Positions 17,781 through 33,853 of a DNA stretch of 64,000 bases are shown one piece after another. The notes beneath the pieces were generated by a model. The model did not search any database, had not been told where the DNA came from, and saw only the letters and a list, made by a program, of their open reading frames with translations. A program made the position numbers and the translations under genes. The DNA is taken from positions 2,232,001 to 2,296,000 of the forward strand of contig NZ_AP023189.1 of NCBI RefSeq assembly GCF_012767755.2, read 5' to 3'. The DNA is from Pseudomonas tohonis (lineage in GTDB: Bacteria; Pseudomonadota; Gammaproteobacteria; Pseudomonadales; Pseudomonadaceae). Each line of letters opens with the position of its first letter. The stretch's first letter is position 1.

Positions 17781-18006
17781 GAAATGTCCTGTTGTCAGGC
17801 TGCTTACAGCTTTTCTGCGCGCACGGCCGCGCACTCCTGTCGGAGCCGGGGGAAGATACCAGTTCAGGTTTATGCGCAAAAGTGATGTTTGAGTATATGT
17901 AAAGAACTGGAATGCATAAGCGAGGCACCGAGCATAACCACGCTGCGCGCCCGCTGGGACCCAGGCGGGAATGGTTCTCGACTGGTGGTTCCAGCCGTCG
18001 CCGGCC

Positions 18007-20022
18007 CTAGCCCAGGGCCAGCAGCCGGACCATCAGATGGCTGCTGGCCAGCAGCGCGTGCGGGTGCACTTCGGCGGGCTCGCGCAATCCCCGCAGGTGC
18101 TGGGCGAGCAGGTCGACACCCGCGGCGCGGGCCAGTGTTTCCTGCTGCTGGAGCACCTCGCGCTGGTGCCGGGACAGCTGCTGGCGCCCGCAACTGGCGA
18201 GGGACTCCAGCACGTCCAGCGCCGGCTCCACCAGGCGCGTGGCCAGGCTGGGCGCTTGCGGAGCGATGGCGGTGGGGCGCTGGCGGTCGAGCAGGCGCTG
18301 GATGCGCTCGAACAGCCGCCGGTTGAGGCTGAGGCCACCCCGGATCACCGATTCGAAATCCAGTGACAGGCAGCGCAATTCACCGTTGTCGGCGATCAGC
18401 AGGGCCAGGGGCTCCAGGGTGCGGCGCCGGCCATCCACCCAGGGGCGCACCAGCACCGCGCGGATGTCGTCGCGGGCCTTCTGGGCGCGCTCCAGGTTGT
18501 CCAGGCGATCGCGACGCTCCGCCGTGCAGGGCAGCTCCAGGGTGATGGCCTCGCCCTGGTCGTCCTCCAGCGTCCAGCAAAGCGCCTGGCGCACCTCGTC
18601 GAGCACCGCCTCGTGGCAGCGGGTCGGGCGCAGCAGCAGGCTGGTCGGGGCCTCGGCGCTGAGCGCGGCGCTGTCCTCCAGATGTTCGCGCAGCGTGCTC
18701 CAGCGCCCGATGCCCAGGGTGCCGAGGCGCGGGTCGTGACCCGCCCAGTGCGGCTGGGCTTCGCTGCGGGTATCGCCATGGCTGGCCAGGCGGCCGTCAT
18801 CGGCCTGGCGGGGCGAGAGGAGGCGCAGCGGCGACCGGCACAGCAGCTGCGGCGTGGATTTCCACAACGCCTGCTGGCTCCAGGCCGATTCGCGGCGAAA
18901 GCCCGGGTCGCTGTTGTCCGGGCGTGCCAGGCTGGCTTCGCGCACTTCACCTTCCTCCAGGTCCCAGAACGCCAGGGTCAGGCCGCGCGCGCCGCCGGGC
19001 GTGGTCCACCAATGCCCGCCCAGGGGCAGCAGGTCGAGCGTGGCGCCCGCCTGGTAATCGCGACGCAGACGGCCACGCAGCGCGGGCAGGCGTTGGGAAT
19101 CGGCCTGTTGCAGGGCGGTTGCCAGGGCGTGTACCTGGGCCATCTGCACCAGGACCTCGCGTTCGCCAATGTGGTCATCGCGGTCGGCAAGGCGGCCGAT
19201 CTGCCCGCCCAGGGTGCGCAGTTGGGCGGCGAGACGCGGCAGCCCCTCGGTACGGGCGGACAGGTTGAGCATGCGCAACTGCACGGCGCTGGCCTGGCTG
19301 GCGTGGGACAGCCCCTGGCGCAGCAGTTCCTGCAGCAGCGCATGGAGGCTGGTGAGCAGGTCGCGCTCCGCCGGGCTCAGTTGCACGGGGTCGGGCGCTG
19401 GCGCGTCGCTGTCGGCCGGCCAGTCCCAGGGCTGGCCCTGTCCCTGGAACAGCAGCGCCAGTGCAGCCAGGTGCAGGGCCTTGCGTTCGTTTTCCCGGCC
19501 CTCCGAAAGCATGCCGTCGAAGCCGCCTCCGGCGAGGTAAATGACCTCGCAGGCCAGCGCCGGCAGGTGGATGACCAGGCGCCGGCCGTGGCTCTGGTGG
19601 CGGGCCTCGCCCAGCTCCCCCAGCCATTGCCGGGCCTTGCGCGTGGCCGCCTTGCCGGCCTGCTTCTGCAGCTGTTGCGGCTCCAGCGCCAGAGCCTCGC
19701 GCAGCGCGATGTCGGCATCTTCTGCCGGCGCTTCTTCGCCGGCGGGTGCCGTGGGGTGTTCACGCAGCCAGATCACGGCCGCGAGGATGTGCTTGCAGCA
19801 GCCGTTGGCGGGGCAGGTGCAGCGCACCGCGTCGATGCCGGTGGCATCCAGGCGCACCTGTTGGCCATCGGCTTCCACCAGGCCGCCCCGCTCGTCGTTC
19901 TCCAGCCAGCGCAGCTTGCCGGCCTCCACGTCCTTGGTGGCGCGGCGCAGCAGGCCGGCGTTGGCCAGCACCTCCAGCGCGGCATCGTCGTAGCTGCGGT
20001 AGCGGTCCTGCCAGGCGCTCAT
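18007..20022 (-). CDS. SWIM zinc-finger protein (YehQ-like), last gene of the MoxR/VWA operon
   Basis: A 671-aa protein with a SWIM zinc finger near residues 50-70 (VRCTCPANGCCKHILAAVIW, the CxC...CxH pattern). The rest is long, mostly helical and rich in Leu, Ala, Arg and Gln, with no enzymatic motif I can name. SWIM fingers bind nucleic acid or protein. The start at 20022 overlaps the stop of the VWA gene (ATGA). The upstream ATG at 20043 would overlap it more and lacks a better ribosome-binding site. It corresponds to E. coli YehQ by domain and position. Function unknown. Confidence 0.82.
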   Translation of the reverse strand: MSAWQDRYRSYDDAALEVLANAGLLRRATKDVEAGKLRWLENDERGGLVEADGQQVRLDATGIDAVRCTCPANGCCKHILAAVIWLREHPTAPAGEEAPAEDADIALREALALEPQQLQKQAGKAATRKARQWLGELGEARHQSHGRRLVIHLPALACEVIYLAGGGFDGMLSEGRENERKALHLAALALLFQGQGQPWDWPADSDAPAPDPVQLSPAERDLLTSLHALLQELLRQGLSHASQASAVQLRMLNLSARTEGLPRLAAQLRTLGGQIGRLADRDDHIGEREVLVQMAQVHALATALQQADSQRLPALRGRLRRDYQAGATLDLLPLGGHWWTTPGGARGLTLAFWDLEEGEVREASLARPDNSDPGFRRESAWSQQALWKSTPQLLCRSPLRLLSPRQADDGRLASHGDTRSEAQPHWAGHDPRLGTLGIGRWSTLREHLEDSAALSAEAPTSLLLRPTRCHEAVLDEVRQALCWTLEDDQGEAITLELPCTAERRDRLDNLERAQKARDDIRAVLVRPWVDGRRRTLEPLALLIADNGELRCLSLDFESVIRGGLSLNRRLFERIQRLLDRQRPTAIAPQAPSLATRLVEPALDVLESLASCGRQQLSRHQREVLQQQETLARAAGVDLLAQHLRGLREPAEVHPHALLASSHLMVRLLALG

Positions 20023-21143
20023 TGCATCACCTCGGCCAACCACTGGGCGAAGTGCTCCGGGGTCAGCGCGGCGATCTGCATGCCGCGGTCGGCGAGGCGC
20101 TGCCCCATGGCCGGGTCGTAGACCGGCTGGGCGCCGTCATCCAGGGCGGCGAGGCCCAGCAGCCTGACCCGCGCTTCGTTGAGGCGTGCCACGCAGGCCA
20201 GCAGCGGGCCCACGGCGGCGCCTTCCTCGAAGTCGCTGATCAGGGTGAGCACGGTGCGCTGCGGGTTCTCCACCAGTTGCTCGCAGTAGCGCATGGCCTT
20301 GCCGATATCGGTGCCGCCGCCCAGTTGCACGGTCAGCAGCACTTCCACCGGGTCGTGGGCCAGGTGGCTGAGGTCCACGACCTGGGTGTCGAACAGCACC
20401 AGGCGCACGCGCACGCTGGGCAGGCTGGCGAGAATGCTGGCGCAGATGGCGCTGTACATCACCGAGTCGAGCATCGAGGCGCTCTGGTCGACGCAGAGGA
20501 TGATGTCCCAGGGCAGTTGCCGGCGTACGCGGGCGTTGAAGCGCGGCGATTCGATCAGCAGGCGTTTGCGCTGCGGGTCGTAGTGCTTGAGGTTGGCGGC
20601 GATGGTGGCGCGCCAGTCGAAGTTCTGCGCGTTCTTCACCAGCGAGCGGCGGAAGCGGTTGCGTCGCCCGTGCAGGGCGTTGGTGAAGCGGTTGCGCAGG
20701 CGCTGGAGGATCTCCTCCACCACGCGGGTGATCAGCTGGCGTACGGCATCGCGGGTTTCCGCGCCCAGGCGCCCGCGCACGCCGAGCAGGGCCTTGGCCA
20801 GCGCCGGGCTGGGTTCGAGGGTGGCCAGGCTGGCGGGATCGGTGAGCAGCGCGCTGATTTCGTAGCGCTCGATGGCCTGCACCTGCAGGCGCTCGAACGT
20901 CGAACGGGGGAACAGCGTGCGCGCCTGTTCCAGCCAGTTCAGGGCGGTCAGCTGGCTGTCGTCCAGCGAGCCGCCGCGCCCGCCCTGGACGTGGCCGCGG
21001 CGCTGGTATTCGCGGTTGTAGAGGTAATCGAGGGTCTTCTCCAGGCGCGCATCGGCGGCGTCGAACTTCGCTTCATGCAGCGCGCGGTCGGCGTAGCGGC
21101 CGAGGATCAGGCGCCAGCGCCGCGCCGCTTCGAGGTCACTCAT
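20019..21143 (-). CDS. VWA-domain protein (YehP-like)
   Basis: A 374-aa protein whose C-terminal half is a von Willebrand A domain with an intact metal-ion adhesion site: CVDQSAS (DxSxS), the threonine in LGGGTDIGKA, and the aspartate in LISDFEEGA. The N-terminal half is helical. VWA proteins encoded beside MoxR ATPases usually act as their substrate-recruiting partners. It overlaps both neighbours (8 bases with DUF5682, 4 bases with SWIM), so it is translationally coupled. It matches E. coli YehP by domain and position. Confidence 0.88.
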   Translation of the reverse strand: MSDLEAARRWRLILGRYADRALHEAKFDAADARLEKTLDYLYNREYQRRGHVQGGRGGSLDDSQLTALNWLEQARTLFPRSTFERLQVQAIERYEISALLTDPASLATLEPSPALAKALLGVRGRLGAETRDAVRQLITRVVEEILQRLRNRFTNALHGRRNRFRRSLVKNAQNFDWRATIAANLKHYDPQRKRLLIESPRFNARVRRQLPWDIILCVDQSASMLDSVMYSAICASILASLPSVRVRLVLFDTQVVDLSHLAHDPVEVLLTVQLGGGTDIGKAMRYCEQLVENPQRTVLTLISDFEEGAAVGPLLACVARLNEARVRLLGLAALDDGAQPVYDPAMGQRLADRGMQIAALTPEHFAQWLAEVMQ

Positions 21144-23604
21144 GGTGAGGCTCCTGGGCCCAGGCCAGCAGCCCGTCGCGCTCCAGCGAGCGCTTGAGCG
21201 CCAGCTGCAGGGCGGCGCCGGCGAGCAGGTCGTGGCTGTCGAGTTCGTGGTGGGCGCTGTCGAGTGCGGCCCCGGTGATGCCGTTCAGCTGCGCCAGGTG
21301 GTCGGCCAGGCGCCCGGTTTCGCGGGGCTTGAGGCGGGTGAAGGCGAGGCGCAGGTCCGGCAGGTGACGGACGAAGGTGGCCTCGTCCCAGTCCGCCACC
21401 AGGGCGTTGAGCCGGTGGGCCAGGTCATCCACCCGCAGGATCAGTTCCGGTGCGGCCTGCAGCAGCCCGTTCAGGTAGCGCACCGCGCCTTCGCTGTCGG
21501 CGCCGGTGCCGAAGCGCCGTTGCAGGGCTTCGGCCAGTTGCTCCTCGCTGCTGCGCCCGTCGATGAACCGCAGCGCGTCGAGCGCCCCGGCGATGCCGGC
21601 GGGGGCCACCGCCTGCAGGCGGTCGAGCGTCTCGTGGAGCGCTGCCTCGTGCAGGGCCAGGCCGGCCTGGCTGCCGCCCAGGTGGAGGAACTCGCGCAGC
21701 CCGAGCAGGGCGTCGGTGGCGGCGCTTTCGCGTTCGGCTTCACAGGTGGCGAGGCCGGGTAGCAGGAACAGGGCGGCGGGGAGGATGCGTTGCAGCAGCG
21801 CCGGGAGTTGCGGGTACTCGTCCAGGCCGAGCAGTTCGCGGCCGCGCCAGAGGTGCAGCAGGCGCTGGCCGCAGGTCACCACGGAGGCCAGCTCCGGGTC
21901 TTCGTCCAGGTGCTCGGCCAGGCGGTCGAACAGCCGTGGCAGTTGCTCGCCGAGGCCGATCGACCCGGCTCGGGCGAGCAGTTGCGCAGCGCGGCTGGCA
22001 CTGCGGCCCTGGCCGCTGGCCTGCAGCGCCTGCTCTTCATCCAGCAGGCGGCGGATGGCGACTTCACGCAGGCTGCTGCCCAGTTCGGAGCGTTCGATCA
22101 GGCGGGCCTCGACCACCGGTGACCAGGCGTAGTCCCACTCCTCGAAGAGCAGGTCCAGCCCGGTGCCGTTGACGAAGTCCGGGCCGCCCTGGTGGCGGGC
22201 GAAGCCGCTGTCCAGGTAGGCCATCAGGTGCAGGAAGCGGCTTCGCGCGCGGTGCCGGGGCTTGCGGTAGAGGTCCAGCCGGGCGCGGCGCTGGAGGCTG
22301 TCGCTGAGGTCGAGGTGGTGGCCCAGGGCCAGGCGCCGGGCTTCTTCCACCAACGGGGGGGCCAGGCTCGACGGGGGGATGTCGCCGAGGCGGTTGCCGC
22401 CCAGCTGGTTCTTCACGGCGTCGAGGAAGGCGGCCTGGCCGTCGTCCAGGCTGCCCTTGACGAAGCAGGAATGGATGGCGTCGAGCAGGTCGTAGCGCCC
22501 CGGCCCGGGGTGCTGGCGCAGGGCGGCGAGGCCGGCGGCCTGTTGCGCGGCCTGGCTGATGCTGGCGAAGGACAGGGCGTCGGCCAACCGCCGCTCGCGG
22601 GTTTCGGCGGCGATGGCGCCGAGGATGCGCGCGGCGATGCGTTGGCGCGCCAGGGCGTCGGCCGGGTCTTCCAGCAATGCCTCCCAGACCCGCTGGTGGT
22701 AGGCCGGCGAGGGCATGCCCGAGGCGTAGCCGTTGAGGGCGTCGAGGCGGTCGAAGCTGTAGCGGATCAGCCAGGCCTGGCTCTCGCCGTCGGCGGCGGG
22801 TGTCGGCGCCGGCGGGCTGTCGCTGGCCAGGGCCTCGACCAGGGCCAGGGTGTGGAAACCGCCGGTGACCACCAGCAGGGGGCCGTCGCAACGCGCCCGC
22901 CAGTCGCGGATGCAGGCGAGCATGTGCGCCTCGCGGGGCAGGGAACCCTCGGCGGCGAGCACGTCGTCCTCGTAGTCGAGGCGCGCCATGGAGCACCAGG
23001 CGAAGGCATCGCCGAACAGCCTGCGCCAGTCCTGCAGGGCACCGTGGCTGCGCAGCTCGAACAGGTGCTCCCAGAGCTCGTCGTGGTCACGGCAATGGGC
23101 TTCGCGGGCCAGCGCCGCGAGGTAGGCGCTGTGGGCCAGGTAGCGCTCGGCCATCAGGCTGCGGCTCTGCTGCGGGTCTTCCTCCACGGCCACCTGGCGG
23201 GCCCAGGGCAGGTCGATGAAGGCCAGCCGTGCGCCGAGGCGATGACCTTCGCGCAGGGCCTGCCATTCCGGCGAGTAGTCGCAGAAGGGGAAGAACGCCG
23301 AGCGCGGCGGCGCGTCCGCCGTGGCGCCGCTGCGGTGCTGGGAGAGGATCGCCAGGGGCGGGCGGCTGCGCGGGTCGAGCAGGTCGGGGATCAGGGCGTC
23401 GAAGTCGGCCGGCCCTTCGATCAGCACCGCCGCCGGGCGCAGTTCGTCCAGCTGCGCGCGCAGGGCGTAGGCACAGGCCGGGCTGTGGTGGCGCAGCGGT
23501 GCGAAGTGCACGCCGGCCGCGGCCAGCGCCTGGCGGTTGCGCTCGGCGGCCTGCAGCCGCGCGGGCAGGCGCGGATCGGCGGCGGGGCTCGATTCGGGCG
23601 GCAT
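21136..23604 (-). CDS. DUF5682 family protein (YehM-like)
   Basis: An 822-aa protein. Near the N-terminus are HFAPLRHHSPACAYALR and AAVLIEGPADFDALIPDLL (about 33-75), and near residue 250 is LLVVTGGFHTLALVEAL. The paired histidine motifs (HHSP and GGFH) look like those of the TraB/TIKI/EreA-type hydrolase superfamily; that link is my inference. The C-terminal half is helical. It starts 3 bases after the MoxR gene and overlaps the VWA gene. It matches E. coli YehM in the same gene order. Catalytic activity is unproven. Confidence 0.83.
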   Translation of the reverse strand: MPPESSPAADPRLPARLQAAERNRQALAAAGVHFAPLRHHSPACAYALRAQLDELRPAAVLIEGPADFDALIPDLLDPRSRPPLAILSQHRSGATADAPPRSAFFPFCDYSPEWQALREGHRLGARLAFIDLPWARQVAVEEDPQQSRSLMAERYLAHSAYLAALAREAHCRDHDELWEHLFELRSHGALQDWRRLFGDAFAWCSMARLDYEDDVLAAEGSLPREAHMLACIRDWRARCDGPLLVVTGGFHTLALVEALASDSPPAPTPAADGESQAWLIRYSFDRLDALNGYASGMPSPAYHQRVWEALLEDPADALARQRIAARILGAIAAETRERRLADALSFASISQAAQQAAGLAALRQHPGPGRYDLLDAIHSCFVKGSLDDGQAAFLDAVKNQLGGNRLGDIPPSSLAPPLVEEARRLALGHHLDLSDSLQRRARLDLYRKPRHRARSRFLHLMAYLDSGFARHQGGPDFVNGTGLDLLFEEWDYAWSPVVEARLIERSELGSSLREVAIRRLLDEEQALQASGQGRSASRAAQLLARAGSIGLGEQLPRLFDRLAEHLDEDPELASVVTCGQRLLHLWRGRELLGLDEYPQLPALLQRILPAALFLLPGLATCEAERESAATDALLGLREFLHLGGSQAGLALHEAALHETLDRLQAVAPAGIAGALDALRFIDGRSSEEQLAEALQRRFGTGADSEGAVRYLNGLLQAAPELILRVDDLAHRLNALVADWDEATFVRHLPDLRLAFTRLKPRETGRLADHLAQLNGITGAALDSAHHELDSHDLLAGAALQLALKRSLERDGLLAWAQEPHHE

Positions 23605-23607
23605 GGG

Positions 23608-24705
23608 TCAGTCCAACAGGCCCTTGCTGGCGTCGAAGAAGTGCTTCCACTGGCCGTCACGGCGGGCGCGTTCGCGCACCACGCTGTCCAGGTAATGGCG
23701 CAGGCGCTTGGCGTCGTCGCGGTTGTCCTTGAACACCACGCCGAGCAGCTGCCGCGCCAGCTCGGCCGGGCCCAGGCGGCCGTCGCCGAGGTAGCGGGCC
23801 TCCAGCGCGGCGGCGTAGGCCACGCTGACCGCCTCGGCGGTGGACATGACCGCGTCCGGGGCCTTGATCGCGGTGCCCTCGCGGGTGGTGCCGCCGCGCA
23901 GCTCCTGGAACACGGTGACCAGCAGGCCGATGACGTCGCGCTCGACCACCACCTTGCCGGCCTCCTCGCCCAGCTCCCGCAGCAGCTGGCGCATCACCAG
24001 CTCCACCTCGAACTCGCCGTCGGCGATGGGGCGCACCGTCTCGAAGTTGAAGCGGCGCTTGAGGGCGGCGGACATCTCGTGCACGCCCCGGTCGCGCAGG
24101 TTGGCGGTGGCGATCAGGTTGAAGCCGGGGCGGGCGTGCAACCGCCCGGTCTCGCCCAGCTCGGGGATCATCATCTGCTTTTCCGAGAGCAGGGAGATCA
24201 GCACGTCCTGGATCTCCGGCGGGCAGCGGGTGATCTCCTCGAAGCGCACCAGCTTGCCCTGGCTCATCCCCTGGTGCAGCGGCGAGCCCACCAGGGCGCG
24301 CGGGGTCGGGCCCTCGGCCAGCAGCAGGGCGTAGTTCCAGGAGTACTTGATGTGGTCTTCGGTGGTGCCGGCGGTGCCCTGGATGGTGAGCATCGAGTCA
24401 CCGCTGATGGCGGCGGCGAGCAGCTCGGAGAGCATCGACTTGGCCGTGCCCGGTTCGCCCACCAGCATCAGGCCCTGGCGGCCGAGCAGGGTGACGATGG
24501 CGCGGTCCACCAGGGCATCGTCGCCGTAGAACTTGCGGCTGACGCCGAGCGCCTCGTCCCCGAGGATGAAGCGTCGCACCGAGCGCGGCGAGCGCAGCCA
24601 GCCGGGCGGCAGGTCGGCGCCGGCCTGCTGGTCGGCCTGGGCCAGGCGTTGCAGTTCCTCGGCGAAATGCTGTTCCGCAGCCTGGCGGAGAACGGTGCTT
24701 ACCAT
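23608..24705 (-). CDS. MoxR-family AAA+ ATPase (YehL-like)
   Basis: A 365-aa AAA+ ATPase with Walker A GEPGTAKSMLSE near residues 92-103 and a Walker B-like KLVRFEEITRCPPEIQ, followed by LSEKQMMIPELG (sensor/pore region) and an N-x-x-D-R-type NLRDRGVHEM. MoxR ATPases act as chaperones that remodel or insert metal cofactors into partner proteins, usually with a VWA protein. The ATG at 24705 has GAAGAAG upstream and overlaps the stop of the DUF4132 gene by 7 bases. An ATG at 24723 is possible. It matches E. coli YehL. Confidence 0.9.
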   Translation of the reverse strand: MVSTVLRQAAEQHFAEELQRLAQADQQAGADLPPGWLRSPRSVRRFILGDEALGVSRKFYGDDALVDRAIVTLLGRQGLMLVGEPGTAKSMLSELLAAAISGDSMLTIQGTAGTTEDHIKYSWNYALLLAEGPTPRALVGSPLHQGMSQGKLVRFEEITRCPPEIQDVLISLLSEKQMMIPELGETGRLHARPGFNLIATANLRDRGVHEMSAALKRRFNFETVRPIADGEFEVELVMRQLLRELGEEAGKVVVERDVIGLLVTVFQELRGGTTREGTAIKAPDAVMSTAEAVSVAYAAALEARYLGDGRLGPAELARQLLGVVFKDNRDDAKRLRHYLDSVVRERARRDGQWKHFFDASKGLLD

Positions 24706-27700
24706 GGGGTCTTCTTCTCCCACTGGGGATCGAAGCCGACGCAGGCATCGGCGGCGGCGCGGTAGTCGGCATAGGTTTCGGCGAGCAGGACCGGCGGGAT
24801 GTCGGCCAGCGGCAGGCTGTCGCCACCGGACCAGCGACGGCCCATCTTCTCGAAGGAGAGCCGGGTCAGCGCGGCGGGGACGTTCTCCTCCGGCAGGCAG
24901 TTGCCGGTGAAACCGATGTTCACGCGCAGGCCCAGGCTGTTGAATTCCTTGAAGTAGTGGTCGAAGAAGCCTCCGTCCTCGGCGGCCGCGCGCTGGTAGC
25001 CGAGCTTGGTCAGCGTGCCGCGCAGGGTGAAGGTGTCGCTCAGCCAGCCCAGGCGGTCGCCGATGGCGTTGCCGCTCTCCTGGTCGGCGACGGCTTCGGC
25101 GCTGATCTCCGGCAGCTGGCGCGACATCTGCGCGAACAGCGGCTTGACCTTGTAGTCCTTGAAGTGGCGGACCCAGGCCTTGGCCGTCTCGGCGTCCACC
25201 AGGGCGGCGTGGGCGAGGCGCACGAGGCTGCCGTCGGCCAGCTCCACCTCGTCATCGTCGAGGTCGATCAGGCTGCCGTCCTCGGTGGGGCGGAACAGGC
25301 GCGTCGCACCCTCGGCGCCCACTTCGGCCCAGACCAGGCGCTGCAGCAGGTGGCGCATGATCGGGTGCTGCTGCAGGTACTCGCGCCATTCCGCCACGGG
25401 CCACAGGCGTGCCGCGCACATGGCTTCGTAGAGGCGCTGGCTCTGCAGGTCGATCACCTGCTTGAGCTCCTTCTTGCTGGTGGAGAACTGCGTCTTGGCT
25501 TCCTTGATCAGCGCCGGGTCGTCGCTCTTGCGCGGCTCCGGCAGGGCCTTGACCACCTTGCCCTCGGGGTTGCACAGCTCCAGCTTGAGCGCGGCATCGA
25601 GGCGCGCGGTGAACAGGCGCTCGCCGTACTGCAGGGCGAGCACGCCGTTTTCGTCGAAGCCGGCGCTGGGGATGGTGCGGTCGGCCAGTTCGTCGGCGCT
25701 CCAGCCGTTGCGCTGGGCGATCTGCTCCACCAGCTCGCGGGCGCGTGTCTGTACCGAGGCGGTGCGGTGGCGGCGGGCGATGGACAGCAGCAACTGGATC
25801 ACCAGCGGCTCGTTGCTGTTGGCGGCGGCGCTGAGCATGGCTTCGATCTGCGAGCGGCGCGGGTAGTGGTCGCGCATGTAGGCCTGGATCAGGCTCACCT
25901 GCTCGTGGCCGGTGGTGTGCCAGGTGAGGGCGAGGATGCCCTTGTCGGCGATGGCGCTGCCCAGGTAGGTGCCCAGGTGCTCGCGCTTGAGCGATTCGAA
26001 GGCCTGTTCCTGGGTGATGTCGGCGTACTCGGGCGAGTACTTCGCCCAGGCCTGGTAGTTCTGCATCTGCCGCGCGACATTGGCCTGGGCGTAGGCGATG
26101 GCCTCTTCCAGGGTCGGGTTGCGGGTGTCCTGGGCGATGAAGGCCAGCAGCAGGCTCTTGCCCAGGGCGTTGCGGCTGGCAGGGGCGAGGCGCTCCAGGT
26201 AGCGGTTGAGCAGGCCGTTGCCGGCGGGCTCCTTGAGCTTGCAGGCGAGGATCACCCACCAGCGCAGGATGGCCGGCTCCACCGGGGTGCCGTCGAGCCA
26301 CTGGCAGGCGGGCAGGTGGTCCAGGTCGAGCCAGGCGAGGCTGGCGGGCGGCTTGGCCTGCAGGCCTTTGTGCGCCTCGGCCAGCAGCACGTCCGGGGCC
26401 AGGTGGCCGGAGATGTCTTCGCCGAGGCTTTCCAGGGTGGTGAGCAGGGCGGCGCGCACGGTTTCGCGCTTTTCCTTGGCCAGGGTCGCCTTCAGCGCGG
26501 GAATCGCCTCGCGGTAGCCCAGGCGCTGCAGCCATTCGGCGGCCAGGGTACGGATCTCCTGCTTGCTCGAGGCCAGGGCTTCCACGGCGCGGTCGCCGAT
26601 GTCCGGCAGGGTCTCCAGCAGTTGCTGGGCTTCGGCGCGGTTGGTCTTGCTGCTGCCCAGGGCCAGCTCCAGCAGCACGGGGATGAAGCGCACCGGCAGG
26701 ACGGGGAACTGCTCGAGCAGGGTCAACGTGGTGGCCACGCTGTAGCTGTAGCGGCCCGGAGCGGGGCGCAGGCCGAAGGCCTCTTCGATAAATTCGGGGT
26801 GCTCGGCGAAGAAGGGCCAGACGCGCTCGGGGTCGATCTGCCCGAGAGGCGAGTTCCAGGCGAAGCAGATATCCGCCGTGGCCCGGGCGGGGTCGTCGTG
26901 GCCGCAGCGCTGCAAGGCGTCTTCCAGGGTGCGCAGGTCCAGGCGTTGCAGGGCGTCGCCCTTCAGCCAGTCGGCCACCTGGTACCAGTTGAAGTGGCGG
27001 TTGCTCGGGGCGCGGAGGACATGCAGCAGGTTGACCTCGGCGTTGGCGGCCAGGCGCCCCTTGTACTGCAGCACCGCGTCGATGCCGGCCGGGGTCTTGC
27101 CGCGCGCGCCGCCGTTGAGGCGTTCCAGGGCGTCACGCAGGTCGGACTCGCCGAGTGCCTGGAGCGACTTGTAGGTCTTCTGCCGCCAGTCCCACTTGCG
27201 CTTGTGCTCGAGGTTCTGGCGCACCTCCTCCTCGGCGGCGAGGCGGCTTTCCTCCAGCAGCTCGGCGAGGTTCTGCCGCAGCAGCTGGAGGACGGCATCG
27301 CCGAGCCGGACTTCGGGGCAGCGCTCGAAGTCGCCGGCCTCGGGCAGCTCTTCCTGCTGGGCGCGGGTCTGGCTGTCCAGGCGTGCCAGGGCATTGGCCA
27401 GTGCCTGTTGCACGGGCTTGGAGCTCTCCACCTCCAGGCGGGCCTGCAGCAGGGGGCGGGCTTCTTCGCCTGCGCGGGCGAGCATGTCGGCGGCCTGGGC
27501 GCGTTCGGCGTTGTTGCCTGCTTCCAGCAGCTGCTGCAGGTGGGTGAGCTTGACCTGCAGCGGCAGTGTCTCCACCTGGGGCGCGGCTTCGGCGCGGACG
27601 CTCTTGGCGGCGCTCACTGCCAGGCGCACCAGTACGTCGGCGTAGGCGTCGGCGAGGGTGCGCTGGCTGCCGAGCAGCTTCACCAGGGTCAGGCAACCGC

Positions 27701-28415
27701 TCGCCGACAGCCGCGAGGGCAGGGCGCGGGTGCTGGAGGGGTGCTGCAGCAGGTATTCGCCGGTGCCGGGCAGGTTGGGCAGCCCGGCGAGGTCGCGCCA
27801 GTGGTATTCGTTGAGGTCGCGGCGGTCGAGGATCAGCAGCAGGGCGTCGTCGGCCGGCAGGTCGTCCACCGCCAGCAGGCGTACCAGCAGGTCGAGGTTC
27901 CAGTGCTTGCGCAATTCATCGCCGTGCTTGTTGCCGAGGTTCTTCAGGGTCGTATGCAGGGCATCGACCACCAGGTAGATGAGCCAGTCGGGCACCTTGG
28001 CGACGCGCACCAGGTTGGCGCCCTGGCAAGCGGCTTCGAGCACCTTGCCGAAGCGGGCGAGGGCGAGCACGTCGGTCCCGGGGGTTACGACATAGAGCCG
28101 GGCGCGGGCGTTGACGGCGGCGTTGATGCGCTTCTTGTGCTTCTGCGCGTCGTTGCGCAGGTTGCCGGAGGGGTGCCACCAGCCCAGCGTGGCGGGCATG
28201 TCGAGGAGCACGACGGCCTCCTCGGCCGGCACCTTGCGCAGGTCGAGCAGGACGCCTTCGTCCTGGCCGCTGAGCACGTGGGTGGCGGCGCGCTCGGCCA
28301 GGCCGGGCACCAGGATGTCGAGCACCTCGAGGCTTTCGACGACGTGCTTGGCAAAGGGCGTGGCCGGGGTGGAGGCGGTGGAAAGGCCGATTTTTTCCAG
28401 CAGCTTCTGAAACAT
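24699..28415 (-). CDS. DUF4132 protein (YehI/MolR-like), first gene of the MoxR/VWA operon
   Basis: A very large 1238-aa protein. Much of it is helical repeat-like sequence suggestive of HEAT-type scaffolding (for example QQLLETLPDIGDRAVEAL and LAAEWLQRLGYREAIPAL near 590-640). The DUF4132 region lies toward the C-terminus (about 1000-1190). I do not see a clear WGR domain, which some relatives carry. The start has AAGGACAGG upstream. It leads a five-gene operon with overlaps or gaps of 3 bases or less, in the order of E. coli yehI-yehL-yehM-yehP-yehQ. Function unknown. Confidence 0.85.
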   Translation of the reverse strand: MFQKLLEKIGLSTASTPATPFAKHVVESLEVLDILVPGLAERAATHVLSGQDEGVLLDLRKVPAEEAVVLLDMPATLGWWHPSGNLRNDAQKHKKRINAAVNARARLYVVTPGTDVLALARFGKVLEAACQGANLVRVAKVPDWLIYLVVDALHTTLKNLGNKHGDELRKHWNLDLLVRLLAVDDLPADDALLLILDRRDLNEYHWRDLAGLPNLPGTGEYLLQHPSSTRALPSRLSASGCLTLVKLLGSQRTLADAYADVLVRLAVSAAKSVRAEAAPQVETLPLQVKLTHLQQLLEAGNNAERAQAADMLARAGEEARPLLQARLEVESSKPVQQALANALARLDSQTRAQQEELPEAGDFERCPEVRLGDAVLQLLRQNLAELLEESRLAAEEEVRQNLEHKRKWDWRQKTYKSLQALGESDLRDALERLNGGARGKTPAGIDAVLQYKGRLAANAEVNLLHVLRAPSNRHFNWYQVADWLKGDALQRLDLRTLEDALQRCGHDDPARATADICFAWNSPLGQIDPERVWPFFAEHPEFIEEAFGLRPAPGRYSYSVATTLTLLEQFPVLPVRFIPVLLELALGSSKTNRAEAQQLLETLPDIGDRAVEALASSKQEIRTLAAEWLQRLGYREAIPALKATLAKEKRETVRAALLTTLESLGEDISGHLAPDVLLAEAHKGLQAKPPASLAWLDLDHLPACQWLDGTPVEPAILRWWVILACKLKEPAGNGLLNRYLERLAPASRNALGKSLLLAFIAQDTRNPTLEEAIAYAQANVARQMQNYQAWAKYSPEYADITQEQAFESLKREHLGTYLGSAIADKGILALTWHTTGHEQVSLIQAYMRDHYPRRSQIEAMLSAAANSNEPLVIQLLLSIARRHRTASVQTRARELVEQIAQRNGWSADELADRTIPSAGFDENGVLALQYGERLFTARLDAALKLELCNPEGKVVKALPEPRKSDDPALIKEAKTQFSTSKKELKQVIDLQSQRLYEAMCAARLWPVAEWREYLQQHPIMRHLLQRLVWAEVGAEGATRLFRPTEDGSLIDLDDDEVELADGSLVRLAHAALVDAETAKAWVRHFKDYKVKPLFAQMSRQLPEISAEAVADQESGNAIGDRLGWLSDTFTLRGTLTKLGYQRAAAEDGGFFDHYFKEFNSLGLRVNIGFTGNCLPEENVPAALTRLSFEKMGRRWSGGDSLPLADIPPVLLAETYADYRAAADACVGFDPQWEKKTPW

Positions 28416-28637
28416 GGTGAACCTGTCCTTGGCGATGCGGTGCCCGATGGTAATTCATCGGGGCGGTTCAAGGCCTCTGCCACGGGCGGTCCAATGTGCA
28501 TTTCTGTTGCTCAGCTCATGTTTTTCCGGCGCGGGGCCATCCTGGGGATGTGCGAGGTCGATGGGGTGGCTTGAGAGGTTGTCGGTCCTGGTCTTAACTC
28601 GTGGACGTAGCGCCCATAACCACAACAAGGGGATGCC

Positions 28638-28751
28638 ATGAGCGATCACACCGAGCAATCCAGTTCTGACAGCGGCATCGACGCCGTCGCCATCTTCTGC
28701 CTGATCCTGATCGCGGTGGCCACCGCGGTGTTCTGGGTCAGCCACCAGTAA
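28638..28751 (+). CDS. 37-aa predicted single-pass membrane peptide
   Basis: ATG at 28638 and TAA at 28749-28751, with AAGGGG 7 bases upstream. The product has a polar serine/aspartate-rich N-terminus of about 14 residues, one hydrophobic helix (AVAIFCLILIAVATAVFW) and the tail VSHQ. It is divergent from the DUF4132 operon with 222 bases between. It may be a free-standing small membrane protein. The strong ribosome-binding site and clean helix are the support; I know no family. Confidence 0.6.
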   Translation: MSDHTEQSSSDSGIDAVAIFCLILIAVATAVFWVSHQ

Positions 28752-28904
28752 CCGACCCGCCGCCGCCCCCTCTGGCGGCCCGCCACGGAACCCCGCAGGG
28801 CGACGCCGTTCTGCGCGGGCTGCGGGCCGTAACCATGGGCTCCGTCTGTGTTGGCTGTTGCGGATTCAACAAGCTCAAGCACGGCGCCCTGCCACGGCCA
28901 CCGC

Positions 28905-28937
28905 GTGGGTTTCGCTTCGCTCTACGCCACCCTACGG
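28905..28937 (-). repeat. REP-type repeat, GGGTGGCGTAGAGCG family
   Basis: Read on the minus strand it is CCGTAGGGTGGCGTAGAGCG followed by AAGCGAAACCCAC, almost identical to the copy at 43460-43491 and related to those at 32611 and 33904. The gap 28752-29006 contains only this. Confidence 0.75.
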
Positions 28938-29006
28938 ATGCGGCGCGCGCGCATCGATGACGACCCTGGTCAGGCGTGAGGGCTCCCGATGCAGTCGGTC
29001 GGGGCG

Positions 29007-29231
29007 TCAGAGCCCGGCGAGGTGCAGCACCAGCTTGACCACGCCGAACAGCGTCAGCGCGAAGACCAGGGTGAAGAGCACCCCGAGGATGATGAAGTGG
29101 CTGGGCTTGCCGCGGCTGAAGTCGCGCGAGCGATTCTTGCCGCTCTGTACCCCGAAGGCGGCGGCCGCGACGCTGTGCAGCATCTCGCGGAACGTCAGGG
29201 GGCGTTGGTTTTCGTCGTTGCTGTCGTCCAT
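29007..29231 (-). CDS. DUF2970 small membrane protein
   Basis: A 74-aa protein with a charged N-terminal half (FREMLHSVAAAAFGVQSG, then a basic KNRSRDFSRGKPSHF stretch) and one C-terminal membrane helix (FIILGVLFTLVFALTLFGVV). This is the DUF2970 layout common in Gammaproteobacteria. The start has GGAGGTGCACC upstream. Function unknown. It follows the RlmN-like gene on the same strand, 52 bases downstream. Confidence 0.82.
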   Translation of the reverse strand: MDDSNDENQRPLTFREMLHSVAAAAFGVQSGKNRSRDFSRGKPSHFIILGVLFTLVFALTLFGVVKLVLHLAGL

Positions 29232-32881: not shown

Positions 32882-33853
32882 ATGCCCAGCGTCATCGGCA
32901 TCGACATCGCCAAACACACCTTTGACCTCGCCACCCTGCAGCCCAACGGCAAGTACCGCACCAAGGCCAAGCTGGCCAACGACAAAGCGGGCTTCGCCGT
33001 CTTGCGCGACTGGCTGAACAAACACAGCGAACCCGGAGCCTGGGTCGTGATGGAGGCCACCGGCATCCACCATGAAGCCCTGGCCGAATGGCTGTTGGAG
33101 CAAGGCTATCGGGTCTGTGTCCTCAACCCGGCACAAATCGCCCACTACGCCCGTAGTCAGTTGCAGCGGGTGAAGACCGACAAGGTCGACGCCAAGCTGA
33201 TCGCCGAATACGGCGAGCGCCATCAGGACAGTCTGCGTCCCTGGCAACCCGAGCCCCGTGCCGTGCGGCGTTTGAAAGCCCTGGTACGGCGCCTGGAGGA
33301 CCTGCGCGAAATCGAGCAGATGGAGCGCAACCGCCTGGAAGTGGCCGATGCCAGCGTCCAGGCCTCGATCCAGTCGGTGCTGGAACATATCGGTCAGGAG
33401 ATCGAAGAGACCCTCAAGGCGATCGACGACCACATCGACAACGACCCGGATCTGCGCGGCAAGCGCGACCTGCTGACCAGCATTGACGGGATCGCCGACA
33501 AGACCGCCGCCCTGCTCCTGGCGGAGCTGGGCGACCCACTGCGCTTTGCCAACAGCCGCGCCGTCACTGCCTTTGCCGGGCTCAATCCGCGGCTGCAGGA
33601 GTCCGGGAACCACCGGGGACAGACACGTATCTCCAAGACGGGCTCATCGCGCCTGCGGGCCGGCTTGTTCATGCCCGCGATCAGTGCCCTGACGTACAAC
33701 GAGGCTGTCAGGGCCCTGAGCGAACGATTGAGGGCGAAGGGCAAGACCGGCAAGCAGATCGTCTGCGCCGCCATGCGCAAGCTGCTGAGCATCGCCTACG
33801 GCGTCTTGAAATCAGGCCGGCCATTTGACGCAAAACTGGCCCTTGCTCACTAG
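32882..33853 (+). CDS. IS110-family transposase
   Basis: A 323-aa DEDD recombinase. The N-terminal RuvC-like domain starts with VIGIDIAKHTFDLA (first Asp) and continues through WVVMEATGIHHEALA and RVKTDKVDAKLIAEY (the Glu and the DxxD pair). The C-terminal Tnp_20 domain contains IDGIADKTAALLLAELGDP and the catalytic-serine region NHRGQTRISKTGSSRLR. It is intact, and AGAGGAG lies just upstream of the ATG. IS110 enzymes cut and join DNA guided by a bridge RNA. Confidence 0.95.
   Translation: MPSVIGIDIAKHTFDLATLQPNGKYRTKAKLANDKAGFAVLRDWLNKHSEPGAWVVMEATGIHHEALAEWLLEQGYRVCVLNPAQIAHYARSQLQRVKTDKVDAKLIAEYGERHQDSLRPWQPEPRAVRRLKALVRRLEDLREIEQMERNRLEVADASVQASIQSVLEHIGQEIEETLKAIDDHIDNDPDLRGKRDLLTSIDGIADKTAALLLAELGDPLRFANSRAVTAFAGLNPRLQESGNHRGQTRISKTGSSRLRAGLFMPAISALTYNEAVRALSERLRAKGKTGKQIVCAAMRKLLSIAYGVLKSGRPFDAKLALAH

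Follow-up and report, generated by a model that had tools for sequence, protein, structure and literature searches.

NorQ–NorD, CoxD–CoxE and RavA–ViaA each combine a whole MoxR ATPase with a MIDAS-bearing VWA protein encoded beside it. CoxD and NorQD are described as serving metal-site assembly, and among the MoxR subfamilies seven have been named, YehL being one (PMC3893208). In the MoxR–vWA ternary conflict systems such a pair is joined by a further conserved protein, which in the classes published is a VMAP, iSTAND, FtsH or beta-propeller component (PMC7159879). In Midasin (Mdn1/Rea1), one giant eukaryotic ribosome-assembly chain, the VWA domain is reported to bind the centre of the AAA+ ring (PMC13036017).

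Here we describe an operon in a 64,000-nucleotide stretch of Pseudomonas tohonis DNA (contig NZ_AP023189.1, positions 2,232,001 to 2,296,000; the window). It likewise has a whole MoxR ATPase beside a MIDAS-bearing VWA protein, in this case of the CoxE family. Unlike NorQ–NorD, CoxD–CoxE and RavA–ViaA, it adds three conserved subunits (DUF5682, DUF4132 and SWIM), has an invariant Glu-Glu Walker B and shows VWA–DUF5682 fusions in some species. It differs from the ternary conflict systems in that none of their four third components was detected: Pfam at E 0.01 shows no VMAP, iSTAND, FtsH or beta-propeller domain in the five proteins. The best solved sequence relatives of its MoxR protein are Midasins (E 1.4e-14), but the operon encodes separate bacterial proteins. 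On sequence and analogy, we lean somewhat towards the five gene products forming a single AAA+ remodelling machine with several subunits, of the YehL-class MoxR–VWA type, in which DUF5682 would be the target or the intermediary of the motor and DUF4132 the scaffold.

Layout of the operon and its E. coli counterpart

The order is DUF4132–MoxR–DUF5682–VWA_CoxE–SWIM, five coupled minus-strand genes running from 28415 to 18007 of the window. The initial annotation had listed this set, and all five open reading frames (ORFs) are indeed present, with each family matched by Pfam. Along the operon from 5' to 3', the junctions as called are −25, +3, −8 and −25 bases. In-frame internal ATGs lie six codons into the MoxR gene (24705) and seven codons into the SWIM gene (20022). 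Because these would shrink the two 25-base overlaps to 7 and 4 bases, both overlaps may be start-call artefacts. Motif coordinates in the operon were counted by hand from the translations. Upstream lie genes for an RNA methyltransferase and a chemoreceptor, an IS110 element and metH. A setting between cysI and metH had been proposed; metH stands, but the downstream "cysI" is a nitrite/sulfite-reductase-like gene that scores below the cut-off of the CysI model.

Gene for gene, E. coli yehI-yehL-yehM-yehP-yehQ repeats the five families of the operon and their order. This equivalence, also part of the initial annotation, is borne out apart from yehK, which in K-12 sits between yehI and yehL; K-12 further differs in having yehF and yehH (WGR/DUF4132 genes) upstream. 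Identity is 51% for MoxR/YehL and 44% for VWA/YehP, both nearly full length, and 30% for DUF5682/YehM. Only partial alignments were obtained for DUF4132/YehI and SWIM/YehQ, each at 29%, over 305 and 111 columns respectively. The two lineages differ in spread. Of 5426 complete E. coli genomes, 5287 contain a match to the yehL–yehP stretch (5165 over at least 80% of its length), whereas the operon occurs in 4 of the 18 genomes of the window's genus, all in one clade, and is absent from 14. Two or more yeh gene names are rarely found together in the literature searched.

Conserved features of the five proteins

The MoxR AAA+ ATPase (371 aa; 23608..24723, minus strand; alternative start ATG 24705) matches Pfam AAA_5 (E 5.3e-35). 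It aligns to YehL over 361 columns (E 3e-114), and this full-length similarity, with the yehI-L-M-P-Q neighbourhood, identifies it as a member of the YehL subfamily. In its Walker A motif, GEPGTAKS (24436..24459, minus strand), the G, P, G, T, A and K are each found in 97/97 sequences. The Walker B stretch, LVRFEEITR (24226..24252, minus strand), has its R, E, E and last R in all 97 as well. Asp-Glu is the usual Walker B pair; here Glu-Glu is invariant. Across the 97 sequences the Walker A, Walker B, sensor 1 and arginine residues are all kept, the Lys of KRRF in 96.

The VWA_CoxE protein (374 aa; 20019..21143, minus strand; Pfam E 5.3e-51) carries the MIDAS sequence DxSxS (D219–S223; 20475..20489, minus strand), with D, S and S each in 97/97 sequences. 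The remaining MIDAS residues are T278, in 96/97, and D304, in 97/97. Pfam finds no extra effector domain on the window's protein. MoxR and VWA thus make an intact motor pair, as previously proposed, with both sets of motifs whole in 96–97 of 97 sequences. Degenerate Walker motifs, which had been named as fatal to a single complex, are not what this family shows. Of the 120 matches listed for a fused query, 28 are natural VWA–DUF5682 fusions, in species that include some actinobacteria. Long DUF5682 ORFs at three loci (L021, L023 and L040) were rejected as fusions: the domain fills the C-terminal part only, and the rest is overlapped by the MoxR ORF in another frame.

DUF5682 (822 aa; 21136..23604, minus strand; Pfam E 9.5e-102) is modelled by AlphaFold2 at pLDDT 87.7, with an alpha/beta N-terminal domain (to about residue 315) and a helical-repeat C-terminal half. 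Four residues, H39, E63, R224 and H251, are invariant in 102/102 sequences. The TraB/TIKI/ChaN/EreA-like fold is characterized by two His motifs (GxxH), a Glu and an Arg. A candidate first His motif in DUF5682 is RHHSP (R38–P42; 23479..23493, minus strand), in which R38, H39 and P42 are found in 102/102 sequences and H40 in 101. Farther along, RExxM ... GGFH (R224–H251; 22852..22935, minus strand; R224, E225, M228, G248 and H251 in 102/102) aligns by hhalign with RNxxW ... VGAxHL of TraB. From VIA-align and hhalign, the N-terminal domain is probably TraB/ChaN-like, a match that is suggestive only: the hhalign probability is 12–14%, in single comparisons. The VIA-align rows for DUF5682 include no solved ChaN or EreA structure, which counts neither for nor against the fold. 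The chains matched by VIA-align were not retrieved from the PDB with a TraB profile or with a TraB sequence. Foldseek returned no match under E 0.001 for the whole model, and no solved structure matched DUF5682 at the sequence level. With TraB/PrgY and ChaN, the domain shares a suggestive structural match and an RxxM/W...GxxH-like motif; the protein departs from them in its first His motif (RHHSP, GxxH in TraB) and its long helical-repeat half. The earlier suggestion that DUF5682 may be a hydrolase becomes plausible from this N-terminal domain, as a candidate activity; the protein may be a metal-dependent hydrolase.

The DUF4132 protein (1238 aa; 24699..28415, minus strand) combines HEAT-like repeats (Pfam HEAT_2) with a C-terminal DUF4132 domain (residues 952–1113, E 5.8e-37). 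Its model gave no Foldseek match under E 0.001. An N-terminal WGR domain is present in some DUF4132 paralogues; Pfam finds none in the window's protein. The SWIM zinc-finger protein (678 aa; 18007..20043, minus strand; alternative start ATG 20022) matches Pfam SWIM at E 4e-4 (20.3 bits against a cut-off of 19.6). Each of its four ligands, CxC ... CxH (19789..19821, minus strand), is found in 83/85 sequences.

The operon as a unit, and what it may do

The set holds together across distant bacterial lineages. All five genes lie side by side at 67 of the best-scoring 80 of at least 566 confirmed loci, several of these 80 being close kin of one another. Nine of the 13 incomplete loci are cut by a contig end. 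Among the other four, two (L077 and L109) have DUF5682 alone, one (L078) has only MoxR beside DUF5682, and one (L104) has DUF4132 on the opposite strand. Gene order in the 67 complete loci is always a cyclic permutation (53, 8 and 6 loci). As a universal order this was rejected, being broken by an Agrobacterium plasmid (L006, MoxR-DUF5682-DUF4132-VWA-SWIM) and by L040. The five proteins also co-vary in distance correlations, although shared ancestry produces these too and near-duplicates are present in the set. Separation of the genes in most relatives had been named as grounds for abandoning the single complex; most relatives hold them together. Adjacency, co-variation and the VWA–DUF5682 fusions support one functional unit, as first proposed. 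The gene set is strict, as claimed, within the window's subfamily but not beyond it. In a second operon subfamily DUF5691 occupies the DUF4132 position, and DUF4132 is found elsewhere: it occurs without DUF5682 in 2 of 10 DUF4132 genomes, and another DUF4132 gene, unlinked to the operon, lies in the genome from which the window comes. DUF5691 was rejected as a divergent DUF4132; because the match is at the repeat level only (E 0.0055), we treat it as the same slot and not as a homologue.

By analogy with the solved NorQ–NorD, the VWA protein would sit in the pore of a MoxR hexamer and be twisted there as ATP is hydrolysed. Because VWA–DUF5682 fusions exist, the twist would be passed to DUF5682, placed like the N-terminal part of NorD. 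The motor could then load or open a metal-dependent site in DUF5682, or wield DUF5682 as a hydrolytic tool on a client. DUF4132, with its HEAT repeats, would be the client-binding scaffold, and the SWIM protein a zinc-dependent recognition subunit. More tentatively, the operon might represent a fifth class of MoxR–VWA ternary system, where DUF5682, as a hydrolase of TraB/ChaN fold bound to VWA (in some species covalently), is twisted open or loaded with metal by the motor, while an interchangeable DUF4132/DUF5691 scaffold selects the client. In the literature consulted there is no counterpart to such a machine, which would be an ATP-gated hydrolase of wide occurrence. The orphan operon would gain a testable anatomy: a motor, VWA–DUF5682 coupling, an invariant candidate active site and an exchangeable scaffold slot. 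If right, this anatomy would take MoxR–VWA chemistry beyond cofactor insertion, to hydrolase gating. A search of the literature by family name found nothing for DUF5682 or DUF5691 and little for DUF4132, yet the yehL–yehP stretch is matched in nearly all E. coli genomes.

The initial annotation had raised defence and stress roles. Of phage defence and a function in stress or maintenance, such as the repair of proteins or nucleoproteins, we favour the latter. We consider it distinctly unlikely that the operon is an anti-phage or conflict system, with a MoxR–VWA switch, a DUF4132 sensor and DUF5682 as effector hydrolase. Its pair is akin to that of the MoxR–vWA conflict systems (PMC7159879), and its MoxR hits the bpMoxR model, below the cut-off (24.7 against 27 bits). 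Its distribution in the genus is patchy and its insertion site clean, and it also occurs on plasmids, such as one of Iodobacter beside restriction-modification genes. However, the third components of those systems were not detected. Against PADLOC models only SWIM matches (E 0.0028 and 0.0039); MoxR, VWA, DUF5682 and DUF4132 give no match at E 0.01. Co-localization with defence islands is not supported. The nearest ORF of 150–650 aa on each side was taken by longest-ORF gene calls, 8 of 80 loci being dropped as near-duplicates. These 117 flanking ORFs gave 8 defence models, against 24 from 117 control ORFs in 20 arbitrary stretches of 14 genomes. The counts are of models, one member each, and correspond to 1–8 proteins in the flanks and 1–24 in the control. 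Among the 25 largest flanking clusters listed, judged generic from sequence, no family reaches more than 8 of 99 loci. DUF5682 is matched by 1 of 50,697 phage records, an unannotated 14-kb contig. The match of the yehL–yehP stretch in nearly all E. coli genomes is unlike the pattern of a defence island.

Two other readings compete with the remodelling machine. The operon is probably not a DNA-damage response machine in which WGR/DUF4132 proteins would be sensors of nucleic-acid damage and the motor would strip bound proteins from the damaged site, although several observations point that way. molR is among listed LexA-regulated genes (PMC11039860, PMC3978071), a one-mismatch LexA box lies directly ahead of yehF in K-12, and DR2173 (WGR) and DRA0165–DRA0166 (a DUF4132 operon) of Deinococcus radiodurans are up on DdrO depletion (PMC8533742). 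Yet the window's DUF4132 has no detected WGR domain, and the ten one-mismatch LexA boxes of the E. coli stretch were equalled in 10 of 100 shuffles. The window has no LexA-type box at up to one mismatch ahead of the operon, the two nearest matches (19248 and 25283) lying inside operon genes; near-matches in the window number 7, against 19 by chance. SOS control was rejected as a general feature: a perfect LexA-type box, in four patterns, occurs in 0 of 92 upstream regions, and CTG-N10-CAG is at chance (10 against 8.6). Because chance expectation is 0.2–0.6 for each pattern, the missing boxes mean only that such sites are not common. We also give a low probability to a dedicated metal-cofactor maturase resembling CoxD–CoxE or NorQ–NorD, serving one enzyme encoded elsewhere in the genome, such as a molybdenum enzyme (compare the old name MolR). 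The CoxE-family VWA protein and the metal-site work of CoxD and NorQD fit this idea, but no recurring enzyme lies beside the operon among the flanking clusters listed. Three additional large subunits are not known from the established maturases. In the Deinococcus study, genes of molybdate metabolism did not share the response of the DUF4132 operon (PMC8533742).

Presence and absence within the genus

Comparison by blastn with 17 congeners delimits a presence/absence segment of 10.7 kb, comprising the operon and its leader (17907..28568; boundaries placed to within some tens of bases). In the 14 operon-less congeners the two flanks lie together, with homology leaping from about 28568 to 17907 across 28–57 unmatched bases. 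Within the genus, this clean segment bears out the earlier view of the operon as accessory content. About 28 bases ahead of the first start codon is a palindrome, CCCGATGGTAATTCATCGGG (28443..28462), which, from its sequence, may be an operator or a 5'-UTR hairpin. A conserved operator was rejected as a general feature, since the 92 upstream regions hold 29 such repeats where 26.8 would be expected, which is no excess. The palindrome core aligns in all four carriers, with imperfect arms in two, and CCGATGNNTTANCATCGG, at up to one mismatch, occurs a single time in the window's genome.

Organization and conservation of the five-gene set

Gene calls and Pfam searches bear out the initial annotation, which placed five genes on the minus strand between window positions 28415 and 18007. 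They encode DUF4132 (with HEAT repeats), AAA_5 (MoxR-like), DUF5682, VWA_CoxE and SWIM proteins. The junctions as called are -25, +3, -8 and -25 bases. Alternative in-frame ATGs at 24705 (MoxR) and 20022 (SWIM) would shrink both 25-base overlaps, to 7 and 4 bases. The SWIM Pfam score is barely above the cut-off, and the four SWIM ligands are kept in 83 of 85 relatives. The record nearest to the DUF5682 protein, 98% identical, is from Pseudomonas tohonis. The gene order is that of E. coli yehI-yehL-yehM-yehP-yehQ, as had been claimed, except that K-12 has yehK as an extra gene between yehI and yehL. Immediately upstream lies a palindrome (28443-28462), single-copy in the genome, that could be an operator; its core is found in all four genomes of the genus that carry the operon. 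The presence/absence segment that holds the operon contains no regulator gene.

The five genes had been proposed to form a single complex. A DUF5682 profile scan of one genome per species (84,980 species) gave at least 594 pattern matches, with at least 566 confirmed. Genes around the best 80 of 566 confirmed matches were assigned by profile searches over ORFs (E 1e-4, gaps <3 kb). All five genes lie together on one strand in 67 of these 80 loci. By record title, Pseudomonadota, Actinomycetota, Verrucomicrobiota, Planctomycetota, a cyanobacterium and Lachnospiraceae are among the sources of these 67. Nine of the 13 incomplete loci end at a contig edge. The four uncut ones comprise L077 and L109 (DUF5682 alone), L078 (DUF5682 with MoxR only) and L104 (DUF4132 oppositely oriented). 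The complete loci fall into three arrangements (53, 8 and 6 loci), all mutual cyclic permutations. Outside the 67, this rule is broken in L040 and in the Agrobacterium plasmid L006 (MoxR-DUF5682-DUF4132-VWA-SWIM). MoxR in L006 is preceded by three co-directional genes, two uncharacterised and one annotated as adenylosuccinate synthetase. Because the 80 loci are nearest relatives, close kin included, 299 evenly drawn Pseudomonadota genomes make the less biased sample. DUF5682 occurs in 12 of these, DUF4132 in 10 and both in 8, versus 0.4 expected if independent. All eight have the five genes together, split over two contigs in G184.

Motor motifs were compared in 107 loci, some near-identical, which yielded 97 MoxR and 97 VWA sequences after a length filter. 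Walker A (GxPGTAK(S/T)), the sensor-1 Asn and both arginines of KRRF are present in 97/97 MoxR sequences, as is a Walker B of the form R-(hydrophobic)-E-E. The usual MoxR Walker B has Asp-Glu; the Glu-Glu marks out this family and does not reflect decay. With the MoxR motifs intact in these sequences, the Walker degeneracy that the initial annotation had considered does not apply. The VWA MIDAS is complete in at least 96 of 97.

A second DUF5682 subfamily has the order SWIM-x-MoxR-DUF5682-VWA, with no adjoining DUF4132. It is found in five of the 12 DUF5682 genomes of the even draw, one of which (G213) holds both subfamilies, and in Deinococcus and Fusobacterium records. Slot x is an ORF of 484-664 aa in six of seven loci (L005, L007, L029-L033). 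It matches DUF5691 in the single locus given a Pfam scan; the other slot-x ORFs are unassigned. DUF5691 or an unassigned ORF occupies DUF4132's slot in this subfamily. The window's genome also encodes, at an unlinked site, a second DUF4132 protein (940 aa; G000:C1:2575557-2576081; L041:8970-11792, minus strand), in which DUF7737 and DUF5724 stretches occur.

Coupling of DUF5682 and VWA

At a Nocardioides locus, a single chain contains DUF5682 (residues 36-820) and VWA (851-1223). With this fused chain as query, 28 of the best 120 matches listed have both domains, DUF5682 first; the named ones are from Nocardioides and Actinomyces. A fused query skews such a list to fused proteins; the fusions are recurrent despite this bias. 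Pairwise distances between components correlate at 0.83-0.93, with 0 of 200 permutations as high for each of the ten pairs, a correlation compatible with either co-evolution or shared species history.

YehL is a named MoxR subfamily (PMC3893208). In the related NorQ-NorD system, as described in PMC9976466 and PMC13036017, NorQ assembles into a hexamer, with a finger of NorD's VWA domain lodged in its pore. In the cryo-EM-based model, ATP hydrolysis turns the VWA against the N-terminal part of NorD and the target opens. As natural fusions place DUF5682 ahead of VWA, we infer by analogy that DUF5682 would be the natural recipient of this twist. An ATP-driven VWA twist passed to DUF5682 might either activate its candidate site, an invariant His/Glu/Arg/His in a putative TraB/ChaN-like N-terminal domain, or move a client bound by DUF4132/SWIM.

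The defence question

A defence or stress role had been considered plausible, and co-localisation with defence islands was not borne out. The 117 nearest flanking ORFs matched 8 PADLOC models at E 1e-10, one member each, versus 24 models for 117 ORFs taken from arbitrarily chosen stretches in 14 genomes. No flanking family is shared by more than 8 of the 99 loci. Among the five operon proteins, the top PADLOC match was at E 0.0028 (SWIM protein). The operon could still, with low probability, have a stand-alone defence role. SWIM, DUF4132, DUF5682 and yeh are all absent from the main text of the MoxR-vWA conflict-system paper (PMC7159879). A literature search by name found DUF4132 in three of the papers covered, and DUF5682, DUF5691 or PF18934 in none. 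Lists of LexA-regulated genes include molR (PMC11039860, PMC3978071).

Distribution and mobility

Four of the genus's 18 genomes, among them the one the window comes from, have DUF5682, and all 18 have the flanking methyltransferase and cysI-like genes. In the 14 operon-less genomes, homology skips from ~28568 to 17907 (window positions), with 28-57 unmatched bases between. The four carriers have 10.7 kb at that site, occupied by the five genes and a leader. A flank-DNA tree with midpoint rooting only sets the carriers apart from the other genomes (support 100/100), a split that fits one operon gain in the genus. The window's MoxR is 72-74% identical to those of Xenorhabdus, Rhodanobacteraceae and Janthinobacterium versus 61% to that of Pseudomonas sp. 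H3, which speaks for horizontal transfer. In carrier G009, DUF5682 is broken over two frames (G009:C1:143473-145703), through either decay or sequencing error.

Among 72,556 plasmid records, 29 match DUF5682, several being chromosome-sized. One E. coli plasmid record, L008 (CP088875.1), has the metG-yeh-btsRS region familiar from the chromosome. In E. coli, a 4-kb yehL-yehP query was matched by 5287 of 5426 genomes, over at least 80% of its length in 5165. An E. coli ST131 branch has a resistance transposon inserted in the metG/DUF4132/yeh region and so tolerates its disruption (PMC9334617).

Four of the five empty-site loci examined for ORFs (L126, L129, L131 and L136, not L137) have a minus-strand gene of ~360-400 codons with a signal-peptide-like start at window ~28750-29010. 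L140-L142 have a similar-sized unmatched stretch at that position, and the window's genome lacks the gene. An IS110-family transposase gene (32882-33853, plus strand) lies between a chemoreceptor gene and metH in the window.
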